Of a stretch of 64,000 bases of DNA, positions 14,484 to 52,532 are shown piece by piece. Both the position numbers and the translations under genes were made by a program. This DNA is from Eubacterium limosum (GTDB lineage Bacteria > Bacillota > Clostridia > Eubacteriales > Eubacteriaceae). The notes under the pieces are model-generated. The model was not told the origin of the DNA. It worked only from the letters and a program-made list of their open reading frames with translations, and did not search any database. Each line of letters begins with the position of its first letter. Position 1 is the stretch's first letter. The DNA is taken from assembly GCF_000807675.2 (NCBI RefSeq), contig NZ_CP019962.1:2914001-2978000 (forward strand), given 5' to 3'.

Positions 14484-14506
14484 GATCAGAAAGCGGTGAT
14501 TACGAC

Positions 14507-37776: not shown

Positions 37777-40700
37777 ATGAAGAAACGATTTTTAGGCATA
37801 CTGCTCAGCCTGCTCATGGCATTTTCAGCCCTGCCACTGCCAGCCCTGGCGCAGGAGAGCAGTCCGGCAGACTACGGAACCCCGGGAACCGACTATGTGG
37901 AGGGCGAGGCCATTGTCTGCGTGAGCGGCGGAGCCGGAGCCTTGTCTGGCGGAGCCCAGCGCCGAAGCGCCGGGCCCTCCTACAGCGCTGAGACACTCAT
38001 GGCCCTGGACAGCGGCCAGAGCGCAGGAAAAGCCGCCCCGGCGATGCTGCGCGCCGCAGAGCCCCAGATAGGGGACGCGCTCGTTCTCGTCAAAACACAG
38101 GACGGCAGCAGCACTGAAACCCTCATCGAGCGCCTGAGTGAAAACCCGGCCGTGCGCTTTGCCGAGCCCAATTACATCCTGAAGGCAAACGCCGTGGATG
38201 AAAACACCTATGAGGATATGAGCGCCCAGCAGTGGGGGCTTGCCAACAGGCGCAAGAATCAGGCCGACCTGAATGTCGCGCCGCTGTACCAGTCTGGTGA
38301 GAAGGGCAGCGAGGAGGTTGTGGTGGCCGTTATCGACTCAGGCATCGACGCCACCCACCCCGATCTGGCCCCGCAGATGTGGAACAGGGGTCTTGATTAT
38401 CCTGAGCTCGCCGCCATGGGCGGGGGAGCGTACGGCATGGTCACCAACGCCAACTATGACGATACCCGGAACACCAGTGACGACAACGGACATGGTACCC
38501 ACTGTGCAGGCGTTATCGGCGCGTCCTGGAACAGCCAGGGAACCCAGGGTGTCTGTGCTGATCTGCGCCTCATGGCCCTCAAATATCTGGATCAGAACGG
38601 AAGCGGCAATGTCGGCTGGGCCGTCAGGGCCTACGCTTATCTGTCCAAGGCCTGTGATCTGGGAGTAAACCTCAGGGCTGTCAACAATTCCTGGGGCGGC
38701 GTATACATCAGTAGCGCCGTTAGGGCCGCTGTGGATGAGCTGGGGAAAAAGGGCGTCGTCTCGGTCTTTGCATCGGGGAATGATACTCTGAACGTGGACG
38801 AAAATCCAAAGACCAGCCTCTCTTCAGCACAGAGCCCCTACGCCCTCAATGTGAACGCCATGGATGAATACGGCCGTCCCGCCTTCTTTTCCAATTACGG
38901 CGCCTACAGCACCGACATTTATGCGCCCGGCGTCCGCGTCCTGTCCACCCTTCCTCAGGACAGGGCAGAGTATAACAGCCTGCTGAGCCAGGACAGTCTT
39001 GTTTATACAGGCTTCGAGAAAGAAAACAGCGCCACCGACAAGGCCGATATCCCAGACGCCAATGGCAAGGCCCTTACCTTCTATGCCTATGATGAAACGA
39101 AGGAATACAAGCTGGGAGAGCCCCTTACCGCAGCCGGGCCAGATCAGGTCGCCTATGGCGCCAGCGCCCTGGACATAAACCCAGAGAAACAGGAAGTTAC
39201 CCAGATCATCTCCGCCCCCATTACATTGGAGGCGCCGCAGGAAGGGCTGAGTCTGTCCTTTACAGCCACCGCTTCGGATTTCAGCGCCGCTGTGGTTTAT
39301 ATTCACAACCTTGCAGACCAAAAGACCTACACGCCGAAGCTTTATAACTGCACCGGCTATTACAATGAGGATGGCAGCGTTCTCTACATCACCGATGGCG
39401 ACTGGATTAACAATTCGGCAGCGCTCGAAGCCGGGTGGGTGGACACTCCCTTCCAGATCGAGATCGATTTGTATGAAGCTTCCGACGCCAATGTCCCCAC
39501 GTATATTGACACCGTAGGAATCGGCAGCCGTAAGGCACCTTACGGCACCATGAGCGGCACCTCCATGGCAGCGCCCGCGGTTACGGGTGCGGTTGCCCTG
39601 CTGTCCGCCGCCTATCCCGATGAGGACGCCGAAAAAATCAGCGCCCGGATCAGCGGCGGAGCCAATCGGAGCCTGGACGCAGCCATGAACAGCCAGTGTA
39701 TCAGCGGCGGCAGCCTGGACACAGCCAAGGCCTGGCAGAACCCCGATCCAGCGCCCAGACATTTTGTGCAGGATGCCGGCAGCCTTACCATCGACGGCTA
39801 TTTCTTTGGCGAGGATCAGGGCAGGGTAGAAATCGGCGGTGCAGAAGCCACCGTTACCAGCTGGTCCGATACCCATATCACCGCAGCCCTGCCCGAGGGT
39901 TTTGAAGCCGAGGGCATGACCGAGGTGCGCGTCACCCGGTCAGACGGCAGCTGGGGAAGAAACGATCATTCATTTACAGCCAGTCCGGCCCAGTCCGCCT
40001 TCCAGGCGCTGGCCCTGCCTGCCGAGTCTCCGGATTACACGGGCTCCATACTCGAAAAAGCAGGCACTGCTGGCGGCTTTATGGCTGCTACTGGCCAGAA
40101 ACTCTACTACCTGGGAAGTGACATATTCAACGAATCTAACTATGCCGGGATCACCGATTACGCCACAGAGCTCTGGTGCTACGATATTCCGGGCAATGTC
40201 TGGCAAAAGCTTGCCAGTCTGCCAGACGTCCCTTATAACTTAAATGGCCTCTGCGCCTGGGAGGGAAAATTATACGCCTTGGGTGAGTACCGGCCAGACG
40301 AGGACAGCAGCGAGCAATGGGTTTATACCTATGACCCCGGAACCGGCGCATGGAACGAAGGCCATCAGGTGGATACCCATTATCCCTGGTACGGCGCCCT
40401 CATCAATTATCAGGACAAGCTGGTCATTGCCGGCGGTCTGAACCCATGGGAGGCTGCCGATACCGCGGGCCTGTATGCCCTCGATCCAGAAACCGGCAGC
40501 CTCAGCCAAATGGAAGGCGCCTGCCTGCCCGAGAAAATGTCCAATGTCAATATTACCGTCGGCGGTGAAGACCGGGAGCAGCTCATCATTGACGGCTATT
40601 ACCAGGTGAAGGATAACCGCATTGTCAATGTCAGAAAAACCTGGCGGTACGATGGCCAGAACTGGAAGGAAAGCAACATGCCCGAACATACTGTGCCCAC

Positions 40701-41142
40701 CGGAACCACTGCTCTGGGCGGCACCAAAAGCGGTGCCCTGATCACAGGGTACAGAAGTACCAGCGAGAGCAGCCAGGACACAATCGGCATGAGCCCGGAT
40801 GGGGCAGTATTCATACAAGACAGCTTTTATCCCACCGTGCCCTGCGCTTTTTACAGGGGCATCGCCTACAACGGACACTACTACGTGATGGCGTCCTCCC
40901 CAGACACCACCAGCCTTGCCTTTAAACGCATGGCCGCGGATACGGCCGACCCGGAAGAGCCCGTCGATCCGGAGCCATCCCCCAGTGTGAAACCGGCGCC
41001 GTCCGACCCCCCGGCCAACAGCAGCCAGAACCCCGGGGACAATGCAGGCACTGGCCTCACCGGACAGCAGACAGCTCTGGCCGCCGCCCTGCTCACACTC
41101 GTCGCCCTGGCAGGATTGGCCCTTTGGAGAAAGTTTATGTAG
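37777..41142 (+). CDS. Subtilisin-like (S8) surface serine protease, paralog 2
   Basis: 1121 residues, 27 bp after the M30/C1 gene and without its own promoter, so probably cotranscribed. The signal peptide and start (KKRFLGILLSLLMAFSALP) closely match paralog 1, as does SPADYGTPGTDYVEGEAIV in the propeptide. The triad is Asp187, His239 and Ser596, with VNNSWGG for the oxyanion Asn. An IPT/TIG-like domain, a kelch-like beta region, a Pro-rich stalk, NAGTG, a membrane helix and LWRKFM follow. GC content is higher than in paralog 1, so the two are not recent copies. Confidence 0.9.
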   Translation: MKKRFLGILLSLLMAFSALPLPALAQESSPADYGTPGTDYVEGEAIVCVSGGAGALSGGAQRRSAGPSYSAETLMALDSGQSAGKAAPAMLRAAEPQIGDALVLVKTQDGSSTETLIERLSENPAVRFAEPNYILKANAVDENTYEDMSAQQWGLANRRKNQADLNVAPLYQSGEKGSEEVVVAVIDSGIDATHPDLAPQMWNRGLDYPELAAMGGGAYGMVTNANYDDTRNTSDDNGHGTHCAGVIGASWNSQGTQGVCADLRLMALKYLDQNGSGNVGWAVRAYAYLSKACDLGVNLRAVNNSWGGVYISSAVRAAVDELGKKGVVSVFASGNDTLNVDENPKTSLSSAQSPYALNVNAMDEYGRPAFFSNYGAYSTDIYAPGVRVLSTLPQDRAEYNSLLSQDSLVYTGFEKENSATDKADIPDANGKALTFYAYDETKEYKLGEPLTAAGPDQVAYGASALDINPEKQEVTQIISAPITLEAPQEGLSLSFTATASDFSAAVVYIHNLADQKTYTPKLYNCTGYYNEDGSVLYITDGDWINNSAALEAGWVDTPFQIEIDLYEASDANVPTYIDTVGIGSRKAPYGTMSGTSMAAPAVTGAVALLSAAYPDEDAEKISARISGGANRSLDAAMNSQCISGGSLDTAKAWQNPDPAPRHFVQDAGSLTIDGYFFGEDQGRVEIGGAEATVTSWSDTHITAALPEGFEAEGMTEVRVTRSDGSWGRNDHSFTASPAQSAFQALALPAESPDYTGSILEKAGTAGGFMAATGQKLYYLGSDIFNESNYAGITDYATELWCYDIPGNVWQKLASLPDVPYNLNGLCAWEGKLYALGEYRPDEDSSEQWVYTYDPGTGAWNEGHQVDTHYPWYGALINYQDKLVIAGGLNPWEAADTAGLYALDPETGSLSQMEGACLPEKMSNVNITVGGEDREQLIIDGYYQVKDNRIVNVRKTWRYDGQNWKESNMPEHTVPTGTTALGGTKSGALITGYRSTSESSQDTIGMSPDGAVFIQDSFYPTVPCAFYRGIAYNGHYYVMASSPDTTSLAFKRMAADTADPEEPVDPEPSPSVKPAPSDPPANSSQNPGDNAGTGLTGQQTALAAALLTLVALAGLALWRKFM

Positions 41143-41265
41143 GGAATCACGCCCCCGGGGTCTGCCCCCGAGGCTTGACGCCTTATGGTCAAGCCGAAGC
41201 GGGTATGGTTCTGCGTTCCAGCAGAGCGTCGCATCCCGTTTAAAATTTCCTTAATAATAAAAACA

Positions 41266-41308
41266 GACAGCCCGGTTTTTCACAGTGTGGAAAACCGGGC
41301 TGTCTTTA
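41266..41308. terminator. Terminator after the protease operon
   Basis: GACAGCCCGGTTTT (41266-41279) pairs with AAAACCGGGCTGTC (41291-41304) and TTTA follows. An additional GGCTTGAC/GTCAAGCC hairpin lies at about 41171-41194. I see no gene in 41143-41406. Confidence 0.75.
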
Positions 41309-41406
41309 TGTCTTAATCCAGATTTATGTCCGGAAAAATTATGAAGTTAAAAGCCATTTGGGTATAACGGTCCAAAGGCAGATAAAAAGTAAAGGAGCCT
41401 GATCAA

Positions 41407-42318
41407 ATGATCGAAAAAATAACCATGAAAGAATGGCTGTCCCGGCGTGTGCCAAAGGTGAAGAGCAGCAGCCTCAAGACCTACCGAAGCTATGAGCGCG
41501 CTCACATCCTGCCATCTCTGGGGAATATCCCCATAAGTGAGGTGGGGGCCATGCTGCCAGCCTTCAGTGTGCAGCTGGCCGAGCGCCTGGCCCATAAAAC
41601 CGTGCGGGATATCCTCACCTATGTGCACACCATCCTGAGGGAGGCCGAGGCAAAGGGGCTGGCCGAAGCGTCCAACATGCCCAAAATAACCATGGAACCA
41701 AAGGAAAAGGAAGTGCTCACCTACAGCGAGCAGAAAGCCCTGACCGCCCGGCTCAGACAGAGCGCCGCCCCGCTGGACATGGCCGTGCTGCTGGCACTGG
41801 CCACCGGGCTGCGCCTGGGCGAGGTGGCTGGCCTGCGGCACAAAGACATCGATCTGGAGGCCGCCGTCCTGCGGGTGCGGCGCAACAGCCAGCGCGTCTA
41901 TGACGGCCATGACGGCCACACCCCCCTTAAGAATACCACGCCCAAAACCCGGCGCAGCCGGCGGGACATCCCCCTGCCCAGAGCCTTTGTCGCCGTACTG
42001 GCCCGATATATGGAAGACCGCGAGGGGCAGCCAGCAGCCGCGCCCCTCATCGCCGCGCCGGGCGGCAGCGCCTACGACCCGCGCACCATCGAGCGCCGCT
42101 TCGATAAGCTGAAAGCCGAGCACGGCCTGAGCTCAGGCGTCACCTTCCACAGCCTGCGCCACAGCTTCGCCACCCGGGCCCTGGAGGCAGGGGCCGACAT
42201 GCGCACCGTGTCCGACCTGCTGGGCCACAGCAGCGTGGCCTTTACCATGAACTGCTATAGCCACAGCGCGACAAAGCTCAAGCGGGAGCAGATGGAAAAG
42301 ATCAACGAATATTTTTAA
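41407..42318 (+). CDS. Tyrosine recombinase (phage-integrase family), candidate invertase of the adjacent switch
   Basis: A 303-residue recombinase. The N-terminal core-binding domain (about 1-95) is SAM-like. The catalytic domain has Arg in TGLRLGEVAGL, His-x-x-Arg in HSLRHSFATRA, His in LLGHSSV and nucleophile Tyr in MNCYSHSA, the complete set. It ends 15 bp before the left inverted repeat of the element at 42334-42521, which makes it the obvious candidate for flipping that segment. It lacks the phage-type N-terminal arm-binding domain, as in many invertases of the Xer-like group. Confidence 0.9.
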   Translation: MIEKITMKEWLSRRVPKVKSSSLKTYRSYERAHILPSLGNIPISEVGAMLPAFSVQLAERLAHKTVRDILTYVHTILREAEAKGLAEASNMPKITMEPKEKEVLTYSEQKALTARLRQSAAPLDMAVLLALATGLRLGEVAGLRHKDIDLEAAVLRVRRNSQRVYDGHDGHTPLKNTTPKTRRSRRDIPLPRAFVAVLARYMEDREGQPAAAPLIAAPGGSAYDPRTIERRFDKLKAEHGLSSGVTFHSLRHSFATRALEAGADMRTVSDLLGHSSVAFTMNCYSHSATKLKREQMEKINEYF

Positions 42319-42333
42319 ATGCAATAAAAAATA

Positions 42334-42355
42334 CCGTTAAGTTGGGAACTTAACG
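42334..42355 (+). repeat. Left inverted repeat of the putative invertible element
   Basis: A 22-bp site whose reverse complement is identical to 42500-42521. It is itself a near palindrome: arms CCGTTAAGTT and AACTTAACG around GGG. The asymmetric centre (TTGGGAA) gives it direction, as in tyrosine-recombinase crossover sites. Confidence 0.85.
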
Positions 42356-42381
42356 GCAAAAATATAAGTAATATTATTAAT

Positions 42382-42410
42382 AGAATAGCATAAGGGTGAG
42401 AAATCTGCAA
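42382..42410 (-). promoter_or_regulatory. Candidate promoter inside the invertible segment, pointing left
   Basis: On the minus strand: -35 TTGCAG (42410-42405), 17-bp spacer, extended -10 TGCTATTCT with TATTCT at 42387-42382. In the present orientation it points towards the recombinase 3' end; after inversion it would sit about 105 bp upstream of the surface gene start, pointing at it. Confidence 0.45.
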
Positions 42411-42442
42411 GTGTTAAATAAAAAACAAAATAGGAAATTAAG

Positions 42443-42468
42443 CCACCCCCAAATAGGGGAGGTTTTTT
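42443..42468 (+). terminator. Intrinsic terminator inside the invertible segment
   Basis: CCACCCC pairs with GGGGAGG (one A-A mismatch, loop CAAATA), followed by TTTTTT at 42463-42468. In this orientation it would block read-through from the recombinase side into the surface operon. Confidence 0.6.
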
Positions 42469-42499
42469 GAAATAAACATCAGTATTCTCTTTAAGCTGT

Positions 42500-42521
42500 C
42501 GTTAAGTTCCCAACTTAACGG
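42500..42521 (-). repeat. Right inverted repeat of the putative invertible element
   Basis: Inverted partner of 42334-42355, identical over 22 bp, with CCC at the centre where the left copy has GGG. No T-run follows, so it is not a terminator. Confidence 0.85.
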
Positions 42522-42577
42522 CGTAAATTCCTGAAAAAGCTTAAAATAACCTGAGAGATCAAGAGAGGATATAGAAG

Positions 42578-45370
42578 ATGAAGGCAAAGCTCAAAGACAA
42601 GCGGCTCCTGCTCACCGCCGTATTTTTCTGCGCCCTGGCGGCGGTGTTTTTGTGGCCGGCAGGGGTAAAGGCAGCGACAGCAGGCGAGTTTACCGTGACG
42701 GGTGGAACATTAGGGACAGATTATACCTATAGCGGCAGTGTGCTCACCGTTAAGACGAGTACACCCTTGACCATCAGCAATACCGACCCCGCCACGGCTA
42801 CCGGCAATCGCATTGTGGCCGCTGGTAATGCCACCATAACTCTGGACAGCGTAAATATCGAGGCAGATACCCCCCTTGCCATTCAAAACGATGTCGCCGT
42901 CAGCCTGATGCTGGCAGGGGATAACATCCTGGCAAGCAGGAGTGGCGCTGGACTGAACGTGCCTGGGAGCGCGGCCGTTACCATTGACAGTACAGACAAT
43001 GCCGGCAGCCTTACAGCAACCGGTGGTGGTTATGCAGCGGGCATTGGAGGCAACTATCAACAAGGCAGCGGCACGATTACGATTAATGGTGGTACGGTCA
43101 CGGCCACCGGCGCTAGTTATGGGGCGGGCATCGGAGGCGGCAGCAATAAGGATGACGGCCCCCTCGTAGGCAGCGGCCCTGTCAACATCAATGGCGGCAA
43201 CGTTACCGCCAATAGCGGCGGCGCTGGTGGAGCGGGTATCGGCGGCGGGTTTCGGGGTTACGGCGGCAGGATCACCATCACCGGCGGCACGGTCATAGCT
43301 AACGGCAAAGGCGGCGGTGCAGGCATTGGCGGCGGCAAATATAAAAATTCTGGGCGCCCTGAAGAAGGCGCTGGCGGTACGGTAATCATCACTGGCGGCA
43401 GCGTTCACGCCACTGCTGACTCGCAATGGGCCCAAAATATCGGCCATGGCAGCGGCAGCTCCAACTCCGGCAGTCTGACAAATGGCAGCGACAACGTCTA
43501 TCTCAAAACTTTCACTTTAAAGGATAGTAGCGGAAGTCCCGTTACGGATGCGGCCATCGATGCCTTTACAATCTCCCACGGCATCAAGGACGTGCGCACC
43601 GACATTGAGGGCAAGCTGTATTTCTACCTGCCAGACAGCATCACGGATAACACTCCGGTCACCGTCACCGCGGGTGGAACAGACTATGTGGGGAAGGTAA
43701 GCGGTTCAGCTACACTCAACCCCTTTGCCGGCGACATCGACCTATCCCAGGGCGGCAACCTGTACATCTGGAACGACGGCTACATGCGGGGAAACAGCGC
43801 GGATACAAGCGCCAAAAAGAGCTACGCCGGCAATTACACCCTGAGCGGCGGTACAGCCGAATCACCTACTGCCAATATCGTCAACGTCATGGGCGACTAC
43901 AATGGCAACCCGGTGAGCGGTACGAAAAAGACCATCACCCTAAATGGGGTCAATATCGACGTAAGCAGCCAATCGTATGCCTGCGCCTTTAGTATCCAGG
44001 CAGGCACGGGTGCGGGAACAGGTGCGAACGTCAATTTGATGCTTTCAGGCAGCAATACACTGAAAAGTGGTGACTGGAGCGCCGGACTGAATGCAACACA
44101 AAACACAGATGTCAGCATTGACAGCGCCGATGATGCGGGCAGCCTTACGGTTTACGGAGGAAGACCGGGAACAGGCATTTATGCCGACACACTCACCGTA
44201 AAGAACGGTAATGTAAGCGCTAATGCTGTCTTGACTTCGGCCGGCATTCAAATCGGCAGCACTTTTAAACTTGAAGGCGGCACGGTCAAGGCTACGGGAG
44301 AGCGGGATTCCGGCATTAAAGGCGGTACGGTTAATGTGAGCGGGGGGACACTAACCGCTGAGGGTGGAACTGAAAAAGCCGGTATCAACAGCAGCAATGT
44401 CAACATCAGCGGCGGCAGTGTTACGGCCAACGGTGGCAGTTATGGAGCAGGTATCGGCGGCAACATTAGAGAAGCCGGTAAAAACGTCACCATCAGCGGC
44501 GGTACGGTCGTCGCCAAGGGCGGCGACTACGCGGCAGACATCGGTGGCGGCCGGGAAGGAAATGGCGGAAATGTCATCATCACTGGGGGCAGCATCAAGG
44601 CATCTAGCATCGGCGCAGGATGGAGGGGTAGCGGCGGCACCCAGACAGACGGCAGTGGGAACATCGTCTATCTCAACACCCTCACCGTGGGCGAGAGCGC
44701 CGTGAGTGATGGAACCGCCATCACCAGTACCGACAGCGCCGATCCCAACACCCTGACCAACGGCTACGGCGTAAAAGACGTGGTAACCATGGATGTTGGT
44801 AAGCTTTATTTTTACCTGCCCGCCACCACAGAGGCGAGCAACCCGCCCATCGAGCTAAAAGCAGGGACGGATTCCACGGTCTACAGCCGGAACTACATTA
44901 GAACATGGGGCAGCACCGCCACCCTCCTGCCCCCGCCCACCTACACCATCACCATCCCGGAAAAAGTGGATTTTGACAGCCCAACCTACCAGCCAGCGGG
45001 GAGCGGGCAGTACAATGACAAAACCTTTGAAGTCATACCGACAACCCTCACCAACCTGACCGACGGCCGCGGCCTGAGCGTCATGGTGAAAGACGGCGGC
45101 ACCAGTCCCAGCACCGGCACTGATTATCAGCTGACCGGTTCAGATTCAAGCGACACCCTGAATTATCAGGTCTATCAAGGCGCCAGTGCCACAGGTAGTG
45201 CTTTAGATGCCGCAGGGGCGACCCTTGTAAATAAATGGGAAAAAGCCGCGGGCGGCAGTTTACCAAGCGCCCAATCCGGCACCCTGCGCCTCGACCAAAC
45301 CCAGATCAAGTACAGCGGCAGCTACACCGGCACCCTGACCTTCACCGTCAACGTGGTGGACAGCAAGTAG
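42578..45370 (+). CDS. Large secreted glycine-rich beta-helix surface protein (putative adhesin)
   Basis: 930 residues with a signal peptide (helix about 9-30). Most of the chain is short beta repeats of the type GGSYGAGIGGN...VTISGGTVVAKGG, typical of right-handed beta-helix or carbohydrate-binding surface proteins. It is built of two tandem modules: about 35-370 and 400-780 each start with a similar beta region, run through Gly-rich turns and end in KLYFYLP. The C-terminal domain (about 790-930, YTITIPEKVDFDSP to YTGTLTFTVNVV) is the same type as the three small secreted proteins downstream. It has no sorting signal or membrane tail, so it is probably held by partners. The leader lies next to the inversion switch. 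Confidence 0.8.
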   Translation: MKAKLKDKRLLLTAVFFCALAAVFLWPAGVKAATAGEFTVTGGTLGTDYTYSGSVLTVKTSTPLTISNTDPATATGNRIVAAGNATITLDSVNIEADTPLAIQNDVAVSLMLAGDNILASRSGAGLNVPGSAAVTIDSTDNAGSLTATGGGYAAGIGGNYQQGSGTITINGGTVTATGASYGAGIGGGSNKDDGPLVGSGPVNINGGNVTANSGGAGGAGIGGGFRGYGGRITITGGTVIANGKGGGAGIGGGKYKNSGRPEEGAGGTVIITGGSVHATADSQWAQNIGHGSGSSNSGSLTNGSDNVYLKTFTLKDSSGSPVTDAAIDAFTISHGIKDVRTDIEGKLYFYLPDSITDNTPVTVTAGGTDYVGKVSGSATLNPFAGDIDLSQGGNLYIWNDGYMRGNSADTSAKKSYAGNYTLSGGTAESPTANIVNVMGDYNGNPVSGTKKTITLNGVNIDVSSQSYACAFSIQAGTGAGTGANVNLMLSGSNTLKSGDWSAGLNATQNTDVSIDSADDAGSLTVYGGRPGTGIYADTLTVKNGNVSANAVLTSAGIQIGSTFKLEGGTVKATGERDSGIKGGTVNVSGGTLTAEGGTEKAGINSSNVNISGGSVTANGGSYGAGIGGNIREAGKNVTISGGTVVAKGGDYAADIGGGREGNGGNVIITGGSIKASSIGAGWRGSGGTQTDGSGNIVYLNTLTVGESAVSDGTAITSTDSADPNTLTNGYGVKDVVTMDVGKLYFYLPATTEASNPPIELKAGTDSTVYSRNYIRTWGSTATLLPPPTYTITIPEKVDFDSPTYQPAGSGQYNDKTFEVIPTTLTNLTDGRGLSVMVKDGGTSPSTGTDYQLTGSDSSDTLNYQVYQGASATGSALDAAGATLVNKWEKAAGGSLPSAQSGTLRLDQTQIKYSGSYTGTLTFTVNVVDSK

Positions 45371-45379
45371 GAGGAGCTC

Positions 45380-45847
45380 ATGAAAAAACAGACAAACATC
45401 CTGATTATTGTGCTGCTGGTACTGCTGACCGCTGCGGGCGGCGTGATCGCCTGGCTGGTGACCCATCGTCCCGACCCGTTGGAGTTGGAGCCCAACGTGG
45501 TCGCCCTGACGCCCACCCCAGCCGGACAGACCGCGCCAGACGGCATCCAGATCCCCGGCTATCCCACCTTAACTGTGGACAGCGCCACCGGTACGGTGAA
45601 CACCGTGTTCCAAAACCCCGAGGGCAACCGCTGCACCTTTGAGCTCACCCTCACACGGACCGACACCGGCGAAGAGCTCTGGCATTCCGGCAAATTTAAA
45701 CCCGGCACCGGCATCCAGAATCCAGCCTTAACCGTCACACCGCCGCCCGGTACCTACCCCGCGGCGCTCACCTATACCACCACCAGCCTGAAAGACCAAA
45801 GCCCCATGAACGGCGCCGTCATCAACACCGAGCTGGTCGTCAAATAA
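45380..45847 (+). CDS. Membrane-anchored accessory protein of the surface operon
   Basis: 155 residues. An N-terminal membrane helix (about 6-26, ILIIVLLVLLTAAGGVIAWLV) is followed by a Pro/Thr linker and a beta domain (about 60-155) with TVNTVFQNPEGNRCTFELTLTRTDTGEELWHSG. It starts 9 bp after the adhesin gene. It is exported but retained at the membrane and could anchor the surface structure. I do not recognise a named family. Confidence 0.65.
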   Translation: MKKQTNILIIVLLVLLTAAGGVIAWLVTHRPDPLELEPNVVALTPTPAGQTAPDGIQIPGYPTLTVDSATGTVNTVFQNPEGNRCTFELTLTRTDTGEELWHSGKFKPGTGIQNPALTVTPPPGTYPAALTYTTTSLKDQSPMNGAVINTELVVK

Positions 45848-45868
45848 AATCTAAGAGAGGATAAAAGA

Positions 45869-46411
45869 ATGAAAATCAGAAAAACACTCACCACTCTAGC
45901 CCTTGCCTGCCTGCTCACCGCGACATTGGCCGCTCCCGCGCTGGCAGCAGACCCCACCATTGTCTCGCCAGCCACAACCGCTGGTTCAGCCGTGAACGCA
46001 GCAGTCGATAATGCCTACACGGTCACCATTCCAGAAAAAGTTGATTTCGGAAAATTGACTAAGGATTCAACCGGTGACGCTTTGATTAAAGATTTGACCG
46101 TCAGCGCAGCCGGTGTTGTCATTCCAGCCGATAAAAATCTGAATGTTACAGTAAAAGGCGATGGAACGAGCGAAGCCTTTACCATTGACACAGCCGCTGG
46201 CGGGATCATAGGATACAATGTCTATAATACGGTGGATACCACCGGAACAGGCGTCACTACCGGAGGAACTTTTAAAGATTTTGAAGCAGGAAAGCCTTCC
46301 ACAACACAAACTGTCAATGGCAAGGTCAAATTGAAAAACGCACCCGTCCATTCCGGCGATTATACCGGCACTCTCACCTTCACCTGCACTGTCGCAGCAC
46401 CAACCCCATAA
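45869..46411 (+). CDS. Small secreted one-domain surface protein 1
   Basis: 180 residues with a clear signal peptide ending ALAAD (about 27). The mature part is a single beta domain from YTVTIPEKVDFGKL to YTGTLTFTCTV, matching the C-terminal domain of the 930-residue protein. No anchor follows. The repeated use of this domain suggests protein-protein assembly. It shares the operon with two relatives. Confidence 0.7.
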   Translation: MKIRKTLTTLALACLLTATLAAPALAADPTIVSPATTAGSAVNAAVDNAYTVTIPEKVDFGKLTKDSTGDALIKDLTVSAAGVVIPADKNLNVTVKGDGTSEAFTIDTAAGGIIGYNVYNTVDTTGTGVTTGGTFKDFEAGKPSTTQTVNGKVKLKNAPVHSGDYTGTLTFTCTVAAPTP

Positions 46412-46424
46412 AAAGGAGACCATC

Positions 46425-46964
46425 ATGAAAATCAAAAAAGCCCTCATCCCGCTGGTCCTCACCGCCCTGCTGGCCCTCGCAGCCACCCCGGCTCTGGCGA
46501 CCGAGATCGAACAGGGAACAGCAGCACCGACCTACACAAATACCGGCGACACCAGCGTCACCGCCAGCGTGGACACTACCTACACCATCACCATCCCGGA
46601 CAGTGATACCCTGAAGTTTGAAAAACTGACCGGCACCGCCGAGGAAGCCGCGCGTACTAAAACCTTTAACGTGAGCGCAAAGGGCGTCACCCTGGAACCC
46701 GGAAAACAGCTCAACGTCACCGTTTCCGGTGAAAACAATGATTTTAAAATGACCAACGCTGCGCTTTCGTCCGTCAAGCTGCCCTACACCATCACCCCAG
46801 CTGCCGGCTCAGCCCTGAGACCCGGTGGCACCATCGCCAGCTTTGCAAACAACAGTACCGAGACGGTCAGCAGCACCCTCATCGTCAACGCCCCCACCAT
46901 GGGCGCAGGCAATTATTCCGACACACTGACCTTTACCTGCACCGTCGCAGATAAAACCCCATAA
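46425..46964 (+). CDS. Small secreted one-domain surface protein 2
   Basis: 179 residues, signal peptide ending ALAT (about 24), mature domain from YTITIPDSDTLKFEKL to YSDTLTFTCTV. It is clearly related to protein 1 (KTFNVSAKGVTLEPGKQLNVTV parallels KDLTVSAAGVVIPADKNLNVTV). GGAG precedes the ATG. Confidence 0.7.
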   Translation: MKIKKALIPLVLTALLALAATPALATEIEQGTAAPTYTNTGDTSVTASVDTTYTITIPDSDTLKFEKLTGTAEEAARTKTFNVSAKGVTLEPGKQLNVTVSGENNDFKMTNAALSSVKLPYTITPAAGSALRPGGTIASFANNSTETVSSTLIVNAPTMGAGNYSDTLTFTCTVADKTP

Positions 46965-46967
46965 AAA

Positions 46968-47101
46968 AATGGAGAATGGAGAATTAAAAGAGCAAAATGC
47001 CGCGCATTTTGAAGGGAAGAATGGCCGCAGGCCGTTCTGATCAAATCTGCAAAAGCAGATTTGCACCAGAATTTTCCATTTTCCATTCTCAATTTTCCAT
47101 T
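46968..47101. repeat. MITE-like repeat with terminal inverted repeats and three nested hairpins
   Basis: Non-coding element inserted within the surface operon. Ends 46968-46985 and 47070-47087 are inverted repeats (16 of 18 match; unit like AATGGAGAATGGAGAATT), and the right end is extended by a further partial copy to 47101. Inside are perfect hairpins at 46994-47010 (AAAATGC/GCATTTT), 47018-47038 (GGCC/GGCC core) and 47042-47063 (CAAATCTGC/GCAGATTTG). It looks like a mobile miniature element or an mRNA-structure repeat. Confidence 0.75.
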
Positions 47102-47133
47102 ATTAAATCCTGACAAGAAAAAAGGAGATCACC

Positions 47134-47601
47134 ATGAAAATCAAAAAAGCCCTCATCCCGCTGGCCCTCACCGCCCTGTTGGCCTTTGGCGCAGCGCCCG
47201 TCCTGGCTGGTGATATTATAAGCCCCGCCACCACCGGCACCGCCGACCTCCGGGCTCAGGTCGATGCCACCTACACCGTGGTTATCCCAGCCTCCATGAC
47301 CGAGGACAAAAGCCTGAAGGGCGGCACCAACACCATCGGCGCCCTGAGTGCCACCAGTCTGAACCTGGAGCCCGGCACCAGTCTCACCTGTACCCTCAGC
47401 GGCGATACCCTGACACGTGAGAAAGGTGTGGAAACCCTGGCTTACAACGCCCATTTCGGCGCCGACCAAACCGCCAAAACCACTACCCTGACCGAAAGCA
47501 CCGCCATCGACGTGAACGTGGAAGTGGACAGCACCCGTCTGGCCCAGGCCAAAGCCGGCACCTACCGAGGCACCCTGAACTTCACCCTGAGCGTGCAGTA
47601 G
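47134..47601 (+). CDS. Small secreted one-domain surface protein 3
   Basis: 155 residues, with signal peptide nearly identical to that of protein 2 (KIKKALIPLALTALLA) and a mature domain from YTVVIPASMTEDKSL to YRGTLNFTLSVQ. It is shorter and more diverged than proteins 1 and 2. It lies after the repeat element, with AAGGAG 8 bp before the ATG. Confidence 0.7.
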   Translation: MKIKKALIPLALTALLAFGAAPVLAGDIISPATTGTADLRAQVDATYTVVIPASMTEDKSLKGGTNTIGALSATSLNLEPGTSLTCTLSGDTLTREKGVETLAYNAHFGADQTAKTTTLTESTAIDVNVEVDSTRLAQAKAGTYRGTLNFTLSVQ

Positions 47602-47610
47602 GAGAGCGCC

Positions 47611-47961
47611 ATGAAAAAGCTTCTTTCCATTCTGGCTCTCCTGCTGGTTCTGACCGCCAGCCTGAGCGCGCCCGTGCTGGCCGACGAGGTGAGAGGCACC
47701 GAGCTGCAGCTGATCGTTACCGAAACACCTACGCCAACGCCCGAGCCCACAGTGACACCTGCGCCAACGCCACCAGAAAATTCAGCGCCCCAGGAAAGCC
47801 CACTCACTGAGAATCCTGTCCAGACAGAGGTCAGGAACCCTGTCACAGGCAACCCCATGACCCTGAAAGAAATCGGGGTGGTGGGCATGGCAGTGGCTGC
47901 GCTTATTCTGACAGTCTGCATGGCCGCGGCACAGCATAAAAAGAAAATTCACGTAAAATAA
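47611..47961 (+). CDS. Proline-rich surface protein with NPVTG sorting-like signal
   Basis: 116 residues. The signal peptide (to about 24) is followed by a Pro/Thr/Glu stalk (PTPTPEPTVTPAPTPP), the pentapeptide NPVTG (about 76-80), a hydrophobic helix (GVVGMAVAALILTVCMAA) and the basic tail HKKKIHVK. This is the order of a sortase-processed wall anchor. It is the last gene before a strong terminator, and may be the wall base for the other operon products. Confidence 0.7.
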   Translation: MKKLLSILALLLVLTASLSAPVLADEVRGTELQLIVTETPTPTPEPTVTPAPTPPENSAPQESPLTENPVQTEVRNPVTGNPMTLKEIGVVGMAVAALILTVCMAAAQHKKKIHVK

Positions 47962-47999
47962 AATAGCAGAAAATGGGACAACGGCTGTCACCCATCAAA

Positions 48000-48048
48000 A
48001 CACCGAAGGCCACATACCGATATACGTATGTGGTCTTCGGTGTTTTTT
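48000..48048 (+). terminator. Terminator of the surface operon
   Basis: ACACCGAAG-CCACATAC pairs with its complement ending at 48042, and TTTTTT follows. Confidence 0.85.
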
Positions 48049-48077
48049 GCACAAAAAAGCGAGAAAAAGGAGAAAAA

Positions 48078-48626
48078 ATGGCATTTGCAAAACGTTTGAG
48101 AGACCTGCTGAAAGCACTGAATTTAGATATTAAGACCTACCTCAAAAAGCACTACGAGCTCTTTGAGGCCGTGGATACCGGCTATGTGGCCAAAGACGGC
48201 AGAGAGCACTTGACCGAGCTCATCTACCACGGCCACAGCGGCCATGTCTGCCGCTATTGCAGGCGCGCGCTCAAAAAGAAAACCCTGCGCCTGGTGGAAA
48301 AAAACGGCAGAAACCATGTGGTCAACGGCCTGTCCAAGGAGGTGGAAGACGCCGACGGGCACCTGTACGTGCTCTGGGTGTGCAGCTGCGAGTGCGGGCA
48401 CTGCGCCAGACGCCAGCGCGTGCTGCCTGTTTTTGCAACGCGCTGGATGCGCCACACCCTGTTCACTGTGGCCCAGACCCTTTTACATTTGTTTGAAAAC
48501 GATGAACTGGACGCAAAACCTCTGAAACCGCGCCGCGGCCGGCCCGTACTTACCATGCCTTTTTACGGTGAGCTGAGCACCGTGTACCGCTGGCGGCAGA
48601 GAATAAAAATAATTTTTAATTCATGA
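48078..48626 (+). CDS. Cysteine-rich hypothetical protein, probably zinc-binding
   Basis: 182 residues from ATG 48078, 7 bp after AAGGAG; the longer frame from 47973 crosses the terminator. Two cysteine clusters (CRYCRRALKKKTLR and CSCECGHCARRQR) suggest a zinc-ribbon-like fold. The C-terminus (GELSTVYRWRQRIKIIFN) looks like the start of a helix-turn-helix. It resembles small DNA-associated proteins of mobile elements, but I cannot assign it. Confidence 0.5.
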   Translation: MAFAKRLRDLLKALNLDIKTYLKKHYELFEAVDTGYVAKDGREHLTELIYHGHSGHVCRYCRRALKKKTLRLVEKNGRNHVVNGLSKEVEDADGHLYVLWVCSCECGHCARRQRVLPVFATRWMRHTLFTVAQTLLHLFENDELDAKPLKPRRGRPVLTMPFYGELSTVYRWRQRIKIIFNS

Positions 48627-48748
48627 TAATAAAAACACGTTCGCGCGTCCGTTAAAACCACAAATTCCTGTAAGATAGAACCATCAGCAGGAGCAAGAAA
48701 AAATTGCACCGCTGAAATCAAACCATTATATTTTACAGGAGGTTTACA

Positions 48749-49315
48749 ATGAATCGTAAACAGACAACCCCAAAGTGTGAAACGGACAAAAAAGTGTTGA
48801 GGCCATGGTGTGCTTCGTGCGCCCTGAAACAGGAGGACCGCCTTTTAGGCAGCTTTGAGACCCTGCCTGATGTGGATAAGGGCATTGAGCTTGTCTTTCT
48901 GGATAAACAGATAAAAGTCCTGGAGCAGGAATTTGCCGAAAAAGCCAATATCTATCTGAAGAAAACAGAACCAGAGCCAGAGGGCTGTGCAGTGGCAGAC
49001 ACGGCGTGCAGTGTGGAGGAGCTGGCCGAAAAGCTGCAGGAGTACGGCGTCGATATTGGCAGAAACCAGCTGTTTAAATGGCTGCGGGACAATGGTTATG
49101 CCCGCTACAGCAACGGCAGCGCTTACCAGAACCTACCCACCGAGGAAGCCTTAGAAAAAAACTATCTGATCACGGTACAAGTACCATACCGAAAAAAAAG
49201 AACCGGGAAACTCTTGCACAGCCTGCGCATCCGGGTGACCCCTTTGGGTCAGGATTTCTTTGGCAGAGCCCTCATGGCAGAGTACGGCACAACATCCAAG
49301 GCGGTGCGCCAATGA
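48749..49315 (+). CDS. Phage-type antirepressor with KilAC domain
   Basis: 188 residues. The N-terminal 75 residues are charged and unassigned, with WCASCALKQEDR. The C-terminal KilAC/ANT domain (about 85-175) has VEELAEKLQEYGVDIGRNQLFKWLRDNGY and the usual conserved end. KilAC domains occur on phage antirepressors and on element-borne regulators. It overlaps the next gene by 4 bp (ATGA). Confidence 0.8.
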   Translation: MNRKQTTPKCETDKKVLRPWCASCALKQEDRLLGSFETLPDVDKGIELVFLDKQIKVLEQEFAEKANIYLKKTEPEPEGCAVADTACSVEELAEKLQEYGVDIGRNQLFKWLRDNGYARYSNGSAYQNLPTEEALEKNYLITVQVPYRKKRTGKLLHSLRIRVTPLGQDFFGRALMAEYGTTSKAVRQ

Positions 49316-49737
49316 GTCACGATTGCCTGAACCTTGAAACCTGCTACTGCCATACCGCCTATATTTTTGGCAAAAGCCATGAACCCCTGCGCGCCATGAT
49401 CGTGGGCGGCCGCTCCCTGGCCTGGCATATGGAGGACCTGGCCGCCCTGCTGGGCCTGGACGATGAGGACGGTTTCCTCGATAAGCTGCGGAACAACCGG
49501 CGTGTGGGTGTGTGGCGCCGCCATTTTCCCTCCAGAGACGACCCGATGCGGTTGGAGGTCATGGAGTTTGTGGACATCGGCGGCATGTGCGACCTGCTGC
49601 AGTACGCCCGCGACAGCGGAAAGCTCACCCCGGACGAGGCAAAGGACTGGCACTTTTTCCTGGACGGCTTCATGATCATGCAGCTGCGAAAAAGCCAGGG
49701 CTGCGGCACTGCGCACCTGCTCTTTTCCACCCGATGA
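49312..49737 (+). CDS. Hypothetical protein, possibly Bro-N/antirepressor related
   Basis: 141 residues from the ATG at 49312, coupled to the antirepressor by an ATGA overlap. The middle part (AWHMEDLAALLGLDDEDGFLDKL) has the look of a Bro-N DNA-binding segment, in which a residue stretch predicts a short helix pair. That likeness is weak. Position inside a chain of four overlapping genes supports its reality. Confidence 0.5.
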   Translation: MSHDCLNLETCYCHTAYIFGKSHEPLRAMIVGGRSLAWHMEDLAALLGLDDEDGFLDKLRNNRRVGVWRRHFPSRDDPMRLEVMEFVDIGGMCDLLQYARDSGKLTPDEAKDWHFFLDGFMIMQLRKSQGCGTAHLLFSTR

Positions 49738-50345
49738 ATTACCTGACCGAAATATTGGCCTTTTACAAATGGCTGGAGACGCACCCCCTGAGCCCGCTGC
49801 TTCAGGCCTACTGGCACCTGCTCATGTATTACAACAACAAAGCTGCCGTCCGGGCAGAGGACGGCAGCTGGCACTGGCCCGTAGACTTCAAGGTACCCAA
49901 CACAGTGCTCATGCCCCTTTTAGGTGTCAAAGACCGGCGCGTACTGCTGCGACAGAGAGGGTACCTCATAGACCACAAACGGGTGACGTACCAAAAGGAC
50001 AAAGGCCAGCGGGCAGGTACCTACCGCCTGGTGCCCTTTGACAGGGGGCTGGGCATGGCAGCCCTCAGGGCAGAGACAGGGGACAGTGTGACACAAATCT
50101 GGACACAAGCTGTCCCGCCCCCTGTGACCGGAGTGTCCCCGTTCATAAATATAAATCATAAACACACTTCTCTATCCTATGGTAATCAGGAGGACGCGCC
50201 GTTTATGCCCCAGTTCAATCTGCTGCCCCAGATCACCGAGGAAGAAAAAGCCGCCATCCGGGCAAAGTACCCCGGCGACGACGTGGCTGCCTTTAACGCC
50301 ATCTGGGCCGCGAGAGAAGAAAAACAGAAAGGAGAAAAAACATGA
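49734..50345 (+). CDS. Replication-initiator-like winged-helix protein
   Basis: 203 residues from ATG 49734, again with an ATGA overlap. The N-terminal 100 residues (MNYLTEILAFYKWLETHP, AYWHLLMYYNNKA, VLMPLLGVKDRRVLLRQRGYL) match the wHTH start of phage and plasmid DnaD-like replication initiators. The DnaD C-terminal domain is not present, and the tail is short and polar, ending EEKAAIRAKYPGDDVAAFNAIWAAREE. It may be a shortened or divergent initiator. Confidence 0.6.
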   Translation: MNYLTEILAFYKWLETHPLSPLLQAYWHLLMYYNNKAAVRAEDGSWHWPVDFKVPNTVLMPLLGVKDRRVLLRQRGYLIDHKRVTYQKDKGQRAGTYRLVPFDRGLGMAALRAETGDSVTQIWTQAVPPPVTGVSPFININHKHTSLSYGNQEDAPFMPQFNLLPQITEEEKAAIRAKYPGDDVAAFNAIWAAREEKQKGEKT

Positions 50346-50542
50346 ACCGATACGGGATTGGCCCCGGTGTGGTAAGACGGAGAAGAAGCTACCTGGTCGA
50401 GGCCGAGTGCCAGATGAAAGCAGGCTTTTACGCCCGCAGCGCCGAGGAGGCCGAGGATGCCTTTAACGAGCTCAGCGCCGCCGTCGAAGACCGGTTTCCC
50501 GGCCTTGTGCTTGAGATTACAGACGTCTATGAGGACGAATAG
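50342..50542 (+). CDS. Small hypothetical protein
   Basis: 66 residues, ATGA overlap with the previous gene. The sequence (SYLVEAECQMKAGFYARSAEEAEDAFNEL) suggests a small alpha/beta fold, but I see no family. It is kept because of its tight place in the gene chain. Confidence 0.55.
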   Translation: MNRYGIGPGVVRRRRSYLVEAECQMKAGFYARSAEEAEDAFNELSAAVEDRFPGLVLEITDVYEDE

Positions 50543-50550
50543 GAGGCTTA

Positions 50551-51138
50551 TTGAAAGAAAAATACGCGTTGATCGACACCTGGGTCCAGGAGGCAAAAAA
50601 CAATGACAAAGCAGCTAAAGAGCAGCTGATCAACACCTTTAAGCCCCTGATCCTGTCCGTCATACAAAAATACATCTACGACACAGACGCCTATGAGGAC
50701 GCCCTGCAGGACGGCGCCCTGGTCGTGCTGGAGGCCGTACAGGCCTACGACCCGGATTTAGGCGTCGTATTCCCCTTTTATCTGAAAAACCGCCTGTTCC
50801 ATCATTTCGTCAATGCGGCCAAAGCCATCAAAAAACAACAGGAAAACGAGCGCGCCGTCACAGGCGGTGGGGAGGATGGGGAAAACAGCCTGGAACAATA
50901 TCCAGATGCTGGGCCATCGCCAGAAAAAGAAATGGTCAGACAGGAAAAAAACGCAGTGCTTGAGCAGATGCTCGCAGAAATAAGAGCAGAAAGAGCAGAC
51001 GTTATCCGGCTGCGCTACTTTGAGGAAAAAAGCCTGAATGAAATCGCCCAGATACTGGACATTAGTCCTTGCCTGGCCGGCGTACACGTGCATCGGGGAA
51101 TAGAAGCCCTGAGGAAAAATAAGCACCGCCTGCAATAA
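50551..51138 (+). CDS. RNA polymerase sigma factor of the sigma-70 family (small, element-borne)
   Basis: 195 residues from TTG 50551, with AGGAGG 4 bp upstream. Region 2 (about 25-90) has LILSVIQKYIYDTDAYEDALQDG. A linker of about 45 residues precedes region 4 (about 140-195, VIRLRYFEEKSLNEIAQILDIS and the recognition helix). The size resembles the UviA/TcdR-type sigma factors and prophage sigma genes of clostridia. Its targets may include neighbouring genes; no specific promoter was found. Confidence 0.8.
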   Translation: MKEKYALIDTWVQEAKNNDKAAKEQLINTFKPLILSVIQKYIYDTDAYEDALQDGALVVLEAVQAYDPDLGVVFPFYLKNRLFHHFVNAAKAIKKQQENERAVTGGGEDGENSLEQYPDAGPSPEKEMVRQEKNAVLEQMLAEIRAERADVIRLRYFEEKSLNEIAQILDISPCLAGVHVHRGIEALRKNKHRLQ

Positions 51139-51150
51139 GAATAATCTTTC

Positions 51151-51198
51151 AATAAAAACAACCAAAGCAGCAAATTTGGTTGTTTTTATTTTTTTTGA
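51151..51198 (+). terminator. Terminator after the sigma gene
   Basis: A perfect 16-bp stem, AATAAAAACAACCAAA (51151-51166) with its complement (51175-51190), has an 8-nt loop and a T-rich run. Confidence 0.85.
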
Positions 51199-51280
51199 AA
51201 TAACTGTAAAATTTCCACCCTTTTTTCCATTGTAAGAGTGTAAGGCAAAAACGCCGAAACCAAAAACAGGAGGTAAGCAC

Positions 51281-51505
51281 ATGGCAATTGAAAAAACAGT
51301 GGAATCGGTAGGGATGAAGATCACCGTCAATCATGGCGAAGTGGGAGGCAAGATCGTCAAGTCCTCCAAGACCTACGGCGACGTCAAAGATGGCGTGACC
51401 GACGACGCCTTTGTGGCCACCGCCAAAGCCATCACCGGCATGCAGGAGCCCATCCGGGAAAAGCAGGTGAAAGTGACGGCCGAAGAGATGATCGAAGTGG
51501 CGTAA
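51281..51505 (+). CDS. DUF1659-family small protein
   Basis: 74 residues, with AGGAGG upstream. It matches the DUF1659 type (SSKTYGDVKDGVTDDAFVATAKAITGMQ), which is nearly always paired with a DUF2922 gene, as here. Role unknown. The pair often lies at the edge of mobile or competence-like regions. Confidence 0.75.
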   Translation: MAIEKTVESVGMKITVNHGEVGGKIVKSSKTYGDVKDGVTDDAFVATAKAITGMQEPIREKQVKVTAEEMIEVA

Positions 51506-51510
51506 TGGGA

Positions 51511-51534
51511 AAAAGGGGCGGAAGCCCCCCTTTT
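51511..51534 (+). terminator. Terminator after the DUF1659 gene
   Basis: AAAAGGGGC pairs with GCCCCCCTTTT around GGAA, ending in TTTTC. Confidence 0.7.
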
Positions 51535-51539
51535 CATGA

Positions 51540-51570
51540 GTGGATAGTGGATAGTTTATGAACTATCCAC
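51540..51570. repeat. Small hairpin repeat
   Basis: GTGGATAGTT (51547-51556), loop TATG, AACTATCCAC (51561-51570), with a further partial GTGGATA copy on the left. It is in the same style as the ends of the element at 46968 (short tandem purine-rich unit and its inverse), so it may be a fragment of a related repeat. Confidence 0.5.
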
Positions 51571-51629
51571 AAAAAAGAATACAGGTAAACCAGAACCACA
51601 AAATTAAAAATAAGAAGGAGACTACAAAA

Positions 51630-51857
51630 ATGCCAACAACCAGCAAAGATTTAACCATCACCTTTCAGCGCGCAGACGGGAAGGATCATAAAATCACCAT
51701 CCCAGATTACAAGGACGGCATTACCGACGCCGAGATCAAAACCGGGGCCCAGGCCATCGTGGACCAGGGCGCCTTTGAGCCCGACGGTTTTGCCCTCGCC
51801 AAGGTCGTGGGCGCAGTGCGGGTAGACACCACCAAGACCGACGTGGCAGTGGAGTAA
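51630..51857 (+). CDS. DUF2922-family small protein
   Basis: 75 residues from ATG 51630, with AAGGAG upstream; the frame is open back to 51558, but that part crosses the hairpin. It has the DUF2922 pattern (DLTITFQRADGKDHKITIPDYKDGITDAEI, with LAKVVGAVRVDT). It is the partner of the DUF1659 gene upstream. Function not known. Confidence 0.75.
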   Translation: MPTTSKDLTITFQRADGKDHKITIPDYKDGITDAEIKTGAQAIVDQGAFEPDGFALAKVVGAVRVDTTKTDVAVE

Positions 51858-51869
51858 GAGAAGCGGTAG

Positions 51870-51893
51870 AAAAGGGCGAAAGCCCTTTTTTAA
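51870..51893 (+). terminator. Terminator after the DUF2922 gene
   Basis: AAAAGGGC, loop GAAA, GCCCTTTTTT. Confidence 0.8.
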
Positions 51894-51929
51894 GTGGAAG
51901 CTTAACCGTTGATACAGAAAGGAGATTCC

Positions 51930-52532
51930 ATGAAAAGCGTGCACAAACGTATTTTTATCCTATTAATAGCCATGGTAGTCATTGTGACCAGTGGTGTGTT
52001 TTTAAAAAGTTTTCAGACAGGGTCAGAGGCGTCAGTTCCCCAGCCATCGCCCCCGGCGCCCCAGCAGGAGCGCGCGCCAGAGACCAGCGTACCAGAACCA
52101 GAGCCACCGTTACCGCCGGGGCCCGAACCCCCACCCGACGGGGCCGTCATCGACCACCCCCTGCCCGAGGACCCCATCCTCACCAATGGCCCCTGGGCGT
52201 CGGAACACTTCCTTATGTCGGAATACGCCTGCGACTGCGCGGGCTACTGTGACGGCTGGCCCGCAGCCATGGACCCCGAGCTGCTTGAGAAAATCGAAGC
52301 GCTGCGGTGTTATTTTGACCAGCCCATCATCATCACCTCGGGCGTGCGATGTGAAAGACGCAACGCCGAGGTGGGCGGTATCCCAAACTCCTGGCATCTG
52401 TCCGGCCACGCGGCCGATTTGTACTGCCCGGGGGTGCCTTATGACGAGGTGGCTCGGGCGGCCAGAGAACTGGGGCTTGGGGTCATCGAGTACCCGGACC
52501 AGCAGTTCGACCATTGTGAAATATGGCATTAA
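51930..52532 (+). CDS. Secreted M15-family D,D-carboxypeptidase/endolysin-like peptidase
   Basis: 200 residues from ATG 51930, with AAAGGAG 7 bp upstream. An N-terminal membrane helix or signal (about 8-25), a Pro/Glu-rich linker and an M15A catalytic domain (about 85-200) are present. Zinc ligands are in SWHLSGHAADLYC and the final DHCEIWH. It would cut D-Ala-containing murein peptides outside the cell. It ends the element-like region at 48-52.5 kb and could be its lysis or cell-wall-remodelling gene. Confidence 0.82.
   Translation: MKSVHKRIFILLIAMVVIVTSGVFLKSFQTGSEASVPQPSPPAPQQERAPETSVPEPEPPLPPGPEPPPDGAVIDHPLPEDPILTNGPWASEHFLMSEYACDCAGYCDGWPAAMDPELLEKIEALRCYFDQPIIITSGVRCERRNAEVGGIPNSWHLSGHAADLYCPGVPYDEVARAARELGLGVIEYPDQQFDHCEIWH

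Follow-up and report, generated by a model that had tools for sequence, protein, structure and literature searches.

Is the short interval between a tyrosine recombinase gene and a putative surface-protein operon of Eubacterium limosum, a gut acetogen studied for gas fermentation, a DNA switch, and in which position does it stand? A preliminary description of the locus had proposed that the recombinase inverts a promoter-bearing segment and so phase-varies the genes at 42578-47961. We analysed the 64,000-nucleotide stretch around this interval (hereafter the window), positions 2914001-2978000 of a single-contig genome of 4,422,837 bases, together with related genomes, and collected the features of the locus in Table 1. 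The proposal is supported, at the level of sequence, by an inverted site pair present at nine of nine related loci, by a conserved promoter-like block and by a reversed segment in one relative (locus G001_b). We are highly confident that the element is an invertible promoter, and consider it likely that the recombinase encoded at 41407-42318 flips the segment between the sites at 42334-42356 and 42499-42521. It is likely, as we infer from these data, that E. limosum does flip the segment and controls 42578-47961 with it; a group of genes for surface proteins would thus probably alternate between expressed and silent states through DNA inversion.

Table 1. Features of the putative switch and its surroundings (positions in the window)
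Feature	Position	Strand	Evidence or remark
Tyrosine recombinase gene, 303 aa, proposed inverting enzyme	41407..42318	+	Pfam Phage_integrase (7.6e-30) and SAM-like N-terminal domain
Leftward terminator-like structure: left site (stem 42358-42332) with T-tract behind	42322..42358	-	Scanner listing; T-rich tail in 10/10 loci
Left (recombinase-side) crossover site, putative	42334..42356	+	Core GGG
Proposed invertible segment	42357..42498	.	Between inverted sites; G001_b has its homologue in reverse
Leftward promoter-like block: -35 TTGCAG, 17 bp, -10 TATTCT, TATGC before -10	42382..42410	-	Conservation
Rightward hairpin with T6, possible terminator in OFF state	42442..42468	+	-11.9 kcal/mol, z -1.48
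Right (operon-side) crossover site, putative	42499..42521	-	Core CCC on + strand
First gene downstream, encoding 930 aa with beta-helix repeats and a signal-like N terminus	42578..45370	+
Five further small genes (155, 180, 179, 155 and 116 aa)	45380..47961	+	Gaps of 9-21 bp, but 169 bp before 47134

The site pair and the adjacent recombinase

The two sites are exact inverted 22-mers (42334-42355 and 42500-42521) spaced by 144 bp; when written as 23-mers they differ at a single end base and enclose 142 bp. Each is a palindrome of the form CGTTAAGTT-NNN-AACTTAACG, whose core reads GGG in the left site and CCC in the right one. The corresponding 21-bp pattern, with a free three-base core and up to three mismatches, matches twice in the window and not once in 100 shuffles. 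A scan of the whole window returned five inverted pairs, among which the pair at 42334/42521 is the only one longer than 20 nucleotides with more than 90% complementarity and arms that do not abut. The left site begins 15 bp past the recombinase stop codon, 56 bp separate the end of the right site from the ATG at 42578, and the G+C content of 42356-42499 is 29%, versus 52% for the window. The exact repeats 144 bp apart, their near-palindromic form around GGG and CCC centres and the 15-bp distance from the recombinase gene had all been described beforehand, and all three observations hold. Rfam, searched at gathering thresholds over 40000-49000, gave no match.

In the recombinase, residues R136, K180, H248, R251, H274 and Y284, which we take to be the catalytic ones, are invariant in eight aligned relatives. 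Its best-scoring sequence relatives of solved structure are 6en0, 6emy and 6emz, chains named Int protein (E 8.1e-24 to 1.5e-24) and presumably the Tn1549 integrase, an enzyme that acts in transposition. This kinship raises the question of whether the recombinase is a mobile-element integrase and the repeats its attachment sites, a reading that would also suit an IMG/VR provirus record beginning at the recombinase gene. However, the sites are inverted, not direct, and lie only 133-183 bp apart in nine of nine loci, in searches that covered inverted pairs near the genes, and phage and plasmid collections contained no match at megablast sensitivity. We find the attachment-site explanation hardly credible. 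Unlike the Tn1549 integrase, the E. limosum recombinase adjoins a short inverted site pair.

Promoter-like and terminator-like elements of the segment

Three signals had been read within the segment beforehand, and they fared differently on closer comparison. The leftward promoter-like pair (TTGCAG, 17 bp, extended -10) faces the recombinase in the sequenced orientation (OFF). It is a weak match to the consensus and absent from the list of our consensus scanner, which named three others between 41200 and 42800, where shuffled sequences gave 1.2 on average. We nevertheless take this block as a promoter because TTGNNN, a 17-bp spacer and TANNCT are conserved across segments: together with an ATG before the -10, they align without gaps in ten of ten segments compared, and the pair stands as described. 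For comparison, passages of PMC5651825 give TTGACA / TATAAT with 16-18 bp as the housekeeping promoter consensus of strain ATCC 8486, and report transcription start sites determined by sequencing in that strain.

The two rightward signals held in part. A hairpin with a T6 tract does exist where an intrinsic terminator had been proposed, but its fold is modest and weaker than stated (13 of 200 shuffles fold as well), and the scanner lists only a leftward version at 42442-42468. A counterpart tried in a second E. limosum locus, described below, folds no better than chance, with 72 of 200 shuffles folding at least as well. The internal hairpin could also block read-through in the OFF state. As for the weaker rightward promoter pair, TTAACG-16-TATTAT, it is on the scanner's list but begins inside the left site, and no constant-spaced equivalent was seen by eye in the other loci.

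Does one of the sites act as a terminator? Read leftward, the left site forms a 12-pair stem followed by TTTTTTATTG. The nine bases behind the recombinase-side stem contain at least five Ts in ten of ten loci, with a run of at least five in eight of them; the stretch behind the operon-side site, taken rightward, contains no more than four Ts and no run longer than three in any of the ten. This asymmetry is weakest in the second E. limosum locus (5 versus 4 Ts). The recombinase-side site resembles a terminator that would serve the OFF-facing promoter. One might then ask whether the palindromes are only transcription terminators, or operators bound by the recombinase, with no inversion at all; the terminator-like appearance of the recombinase-side palindrome with its T-tract is in keeping with such a role. 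The operon-side palindrome, on the other hand, has no T-tract behind it in ten of ten loci, each pair has mutually inverted cores, which vary from locus to locus, and the segment is reversed in G001_b, so that we regard this possibility as very improbable.

With an invertible promoter as the preferred reading, the tyrosine recombinase would act on the two inverted sites and flip the segment between them. In the OFF state the promoter at 42410-42382 would face the recombinase gene's 3' end and, since a T-tract lies behind the recombinase-side site only, would yield a short RNA stopping at this site, where palindrome and T-tract would form the terminator, and sparing the recombinase gene. After inversion, the -10 would lie at 42468-42473, directed toward 42578 and about 105 bp upstream of its ATG. 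In this ON state the operon-side site, lacking a T-tract, would let transcription enter the surface operon.

Related loci and segment orientation

A recombinase search of 41 genomes, E. limosum included, gave 17 matches at E <=1e-40, in four Eubacterium genomes (G000 is the E. limosum genome, G003 is E. callanderi FD, and G001 and G002 are further species of the genus). All nine matches of at least 46% identity have an inverted site pair directly behind the gene, with 133-183 bp between the exact arms; the remaining eight, at 33-38% identity, show a sister layout with the recombinase inside the repeats. E. callanderi FD possesses a recombinase identical in protein to that of E. limosum. In the second E. 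limosum locus the recombinase is 46% identical, the match extends up to 2451047, and sites follow at 2451070 and 2451286, with core AGG/CCT and one arm base altered in the far site. Among 67 genomes from the order, these four alone have the exact 19-bp motif, at 17 places (none for the pattern read backwards), and these places together with one arm bearing a mismatch make up nine pairs. The 21-bp form was found in one of 291 genomes of a class sample, E. limosum itself. With two mismatches allowed, the E. limosum genome holds one extra, unpaired place, which is likely due to chance since the backwards control gave six. Of at least 142 recombinase loci (at least 80 from genomes and 62 viral) scanned for the site with up to three mismatches, four had an inverted pair: L046, L047, L048 and L126. 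Elsewhere the site matches had three mismatches and formed no inverted pair.

Is each recombinase dedicated to its own pair? Another recombinase, or several in trans, might act on the sites: the site arms are nearly identical between loci though the recombinases are only 46-58% identical, and RecV of C. difficile is described in parts of PMC5903667 as serving several switches. The cores vary among loci (GGG and AGG in E. limosum; GGG, GGA and AGG in G003), and both loci share AGG in G001 as well as in G002, so that the sites do not prove that each recombinase acts on its own pair alone; for the same reason we dropped the notion of the core as an address code insulating the loci against cross-recombination. 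Against either kind of action, each of the nine pairs lies directly behind its own recombinase gene, and there is no unpaired exact site in the four genomes, the one single arm having its partner at one mismatch. We judge such action unlikely; the adjacent gene, 41407-42318, is the likely recombinase of the switch.

In a quick tree, the recombinases with an adjoining site pair fall into a single group (SH-aLRT 100, no bootstrap). The 44 rows of this tree comprise eight of the nine recombinases of this type (L033 was omitted, its protein being identical to that of L005, the present locus), 12 encoded inside repeats and 24 others, namely 22 of L049-L076 (without L060, L066, L071, L072, L074 and L076) plus L078 and L085. 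Repeats were also sought around 32 of the at least 142 loci, that is, 28 of the at least 80 genome loci (L049-L076) and four of the 62 viral ones. In thirteen of these 28 more distant loci the recombinase is spanned by an inverted repeat no shorter than 13 nucleotides, the shortest of which may be due to chance; at one, L055, a pair directly follows the gene. This last locus (L055:4983-8740) belongs to the genome of an uncultured member of the Clostridia; there, a related recombinase of 33% identity precedes a 19-bp inverted pair 133 bp apart, beyond which come a small cysteine-containing peptide gene and, as judged by eye, a radical-SAM-like gene. This is possibly a phase-variable peptide-modification operon.

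Has the segment been caught in both orientations? Ten segments were compared both ways, from the nine recombinase-linked loci and from the IMG/VR contig IMGVR_UViG_649633044, whose number we take to designate strain KIST612. Eight of the ten are distinct, and three are near-identical copies of the E. limosum cassette. Leaving aside near-copies and four closer pairs, which reach 79-94% in the better orientation, segment identity between loci is 46-66%. In nine of ten loci, including this one, the promoter-like block faces the recombinase and not the operon (OFF), and in G001_b it faces the operon; this agrees with the earlier suggestion that the present orientation is the less active one, as judged from where the conserved block points. 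For the second E. limosum locus, where the whole segment is 46-51% identical either way, the OFF call comes from the promoter block alone.

The segment of G001_b is 94% identical to that of G002_b when reversed (49% unreversed) and 81% identical to that of G002_a (50% unreversed). The flanks align unreversed: over 300 bp at the recombinase gene end, identity is 92% with G002_a and 62% with G002_b, and over 300 bp downstream it is 64% and 73%, respectively. A reversed segment between collinear flanks indicates that inversion has happened in this switch family, between species; in the E. limosum strain itself we infer it. Both orientations exist between species of the family, not within a strain. 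The comparison of related genomes for a flipped segment, suggested in the preliminary description, thus gave a reversed segment in G001_b and the same way round at this very locus in E. callanderi FD and the IMG/VR contig, as in E. limosum. An exact-pattern search of viral contigs retrieved only the same IMG/VR contig, in the same orientation.

The recombinase of G001_b is closest to that of G002_a (86%) and its segment to that of G002_b; because their nearest relatives differ, parts of the cassettes have probably been exchanged. An ungapped comparison of L005 with L033 had pointed to sharp cassette borders; this idea was dropped, as a gapped comparison gave collinear flanks, with about 2.6 kb more upstream DNA in L046.

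In the sister design, 12 related recombinases in four genomes sit inside an inverted pair about 1.1-1.2 kb apart. The sites are about 21 bp long, with 8-bp arms of other sequence and a 5-bp centre, and the right site departs from the left by two mismatches in four of the 12 loci and by one mismatch in one. In each of the 12, an outward-directed TATAAT box lies between the recombinase gene and the left site, and the left-site hairpin is followed by a T-rich tail; right sites are mixed, some with T-tracts. No reversal of these blocks against aligned flanks appeared in eight between-species comparisons (one with a single flank aligned), and we dropped them as further proof of inversion. E. limosum has four sister-design recombinases, L026, L027, L028 and L029, near 3618636, 2889210, 1679093 and 1090535; an HD-domain protein is encoded behind three of them and a signal-bearing protein behind two (816 aa, cut, and 662 aa, cut, with leucine-rich repeats). 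A slot behind a U32-peptidase-like gene (by eye; L195, L197, L217 and L218) is occupied by the recombinase-outside design in G002 and G003, and by the recombinase-inside design in E. limosum and G001.

We offer a wider picture tentatively, with somewhat less than even credence. The E. limosum group may use a standard plug-in switch composed of a recombinase, a short invertible promoter and a crossover site doubling as a terminator that shields the recombinase gene from the OFF-phase promoter of its own switch. Cassette parts would be swapped among loci and among surface operons, each cell thereby displaying one of many surface combinations, and the sister design, with the recombinase inside the block, would have a similar site-plus-T-tract at its left end.

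Downstream genes and comparison with known switches

What would these switches control? Behind the present one, the five small genes at 45380-47961 have no Pfam match, the 116-aa protein showing a sub-threshold similarity to a sortase-dependent surface protein family (25.6 bits versus a cut-off of 47). Large proteins with beta-helix repeats (Pfam) are found downstream of this locus, G001_b and G002_b, and the protein behind G002_a has an N terminus resembling those of the latter two. In the second E. limosum locus the downstream protein combines BspA-type leucine-rich repeats with a dockerin (Pfam); those of G001_a and G003_c, both cut by the fetched stretch, have weak Ig-like domain matches, and the 1555-aa protein behind G003_b has no Pfam match. 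The first downstream gene encodes a LytTR-domain protein in two loci and an HD-domain protein in one. Taken together, the genes downstream of the switches examined mostly look secreted or surface-type, as far as their sequences tell.

In L193 and L198, short overlapping reading frames with a ribosome-binding-like sequence were seen by eye between the operon-side site and the LytTR gene, and these might encode a leader peptide. Behind the putative operon, the window has at 47973-52532 small genes including one with a KilAC-type antirepressor domain and one for an ECF-like sigma factor, others being unmatched; small-gene sets similar by eye lie behind two other recombinase loci (L027:4883-7657 and L197, reverse complement, 13124-14646). 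A 492-bp block in the downstream beta-helix gene is inverted between L126:2979-3470 (IMG/VR contig) and L046:7979-8470 (E. callanderi FD), with 99.8% identity, flanks 100% identical over the compared stretch and the reading frame kept open. No inverted repeats were seen at the ends of this block; it may be a real inversion or an assembly error, between which the sequences do not discriminate.

If the surface operons are phase-variable, isogenic cultures would be mixed populations, with possible consequences for adhesion, sensitivity to phages and reproducibility. The family, with nearly constant sites and varied recombinases, is also a natural set in which to study site recognition by tyrosine recombinases and the use of a site as terminator.

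The locus has the hallmarks of an inverton: an inverted pair, an internal promoter (by conservation) and a tyrosine recombinase with what we take to be its catalytic residues. Promoter inversion by a neighbouring recombinase is already well known; the site-as-terminator layout and the cassette exchange may be the new parts. According to parts of PMC5903667, most characterized inversion systems have the recombinase beside, and occasionally inside, the segment. Promoter-inversion switches such as E. coli fim, as outlined in passages of PMC2784873 and PMC5903667, similarly have an intergenic promoter segment, inverted repeats, a recombinase nearby and surface genes downstream. In contrast to fim-type switches as presented there, the E. 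limosum switch has other repeats, one recombinase gene per switch and a terminator-like recombinase-side site. The cwpV switch of Clostridioides difficile, served by RecV, lies upstream of the gene for a surface protein; its inverted repeats are imperfect, 21 bp long and 195 bp apart, and passages of PMC2784873 propose that a hairpin with a T-tract at a repeat acts in the OFF state. There, however, the promoter is outside the segment and recV is not nearby, an arrangement that the E. limosum switch does not share, its promoter-like block being inside and its recombinase adjacent; a further promoter might lie outside the segment. Parts of PMC11892184 describe groups of Clostridia invertons with tyrosine-type recombinase genes enriched nearby; the word Eubacterium does not occur in its main text.

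Within the open-licence literature, as represented by titles and the beginnings of abstracts, we found no report of an invertible promoter, inverton or phase variation in E. limosum, or of DNA inversion in E. callanderi, and the terms 'inversion' and 'recombinase' do not occur in the parts of PMC7079680 and PMC10795377 considered. Passages of PMC9503626 report five inverted blocks, of no stated size there, between E. limosum B2 and ATCC 8486, which neither support nor refute inversion at this locus, as well as rearranged type I specificity subunits in adapted clones of strain B2; Table 1 of that article places specificity-subunit differences of ATCC 8486 at 3183052-3183516. With differences so placed, the genome analysed here is probably that of ATCC 8486: by eye, its locus L213 (G000:3180500-3187500) contains, at about 3.181-3.184 Mb, type I restriction genes clustered with several pieces of specificity subunits and with a tyrosine recombinase of their own.
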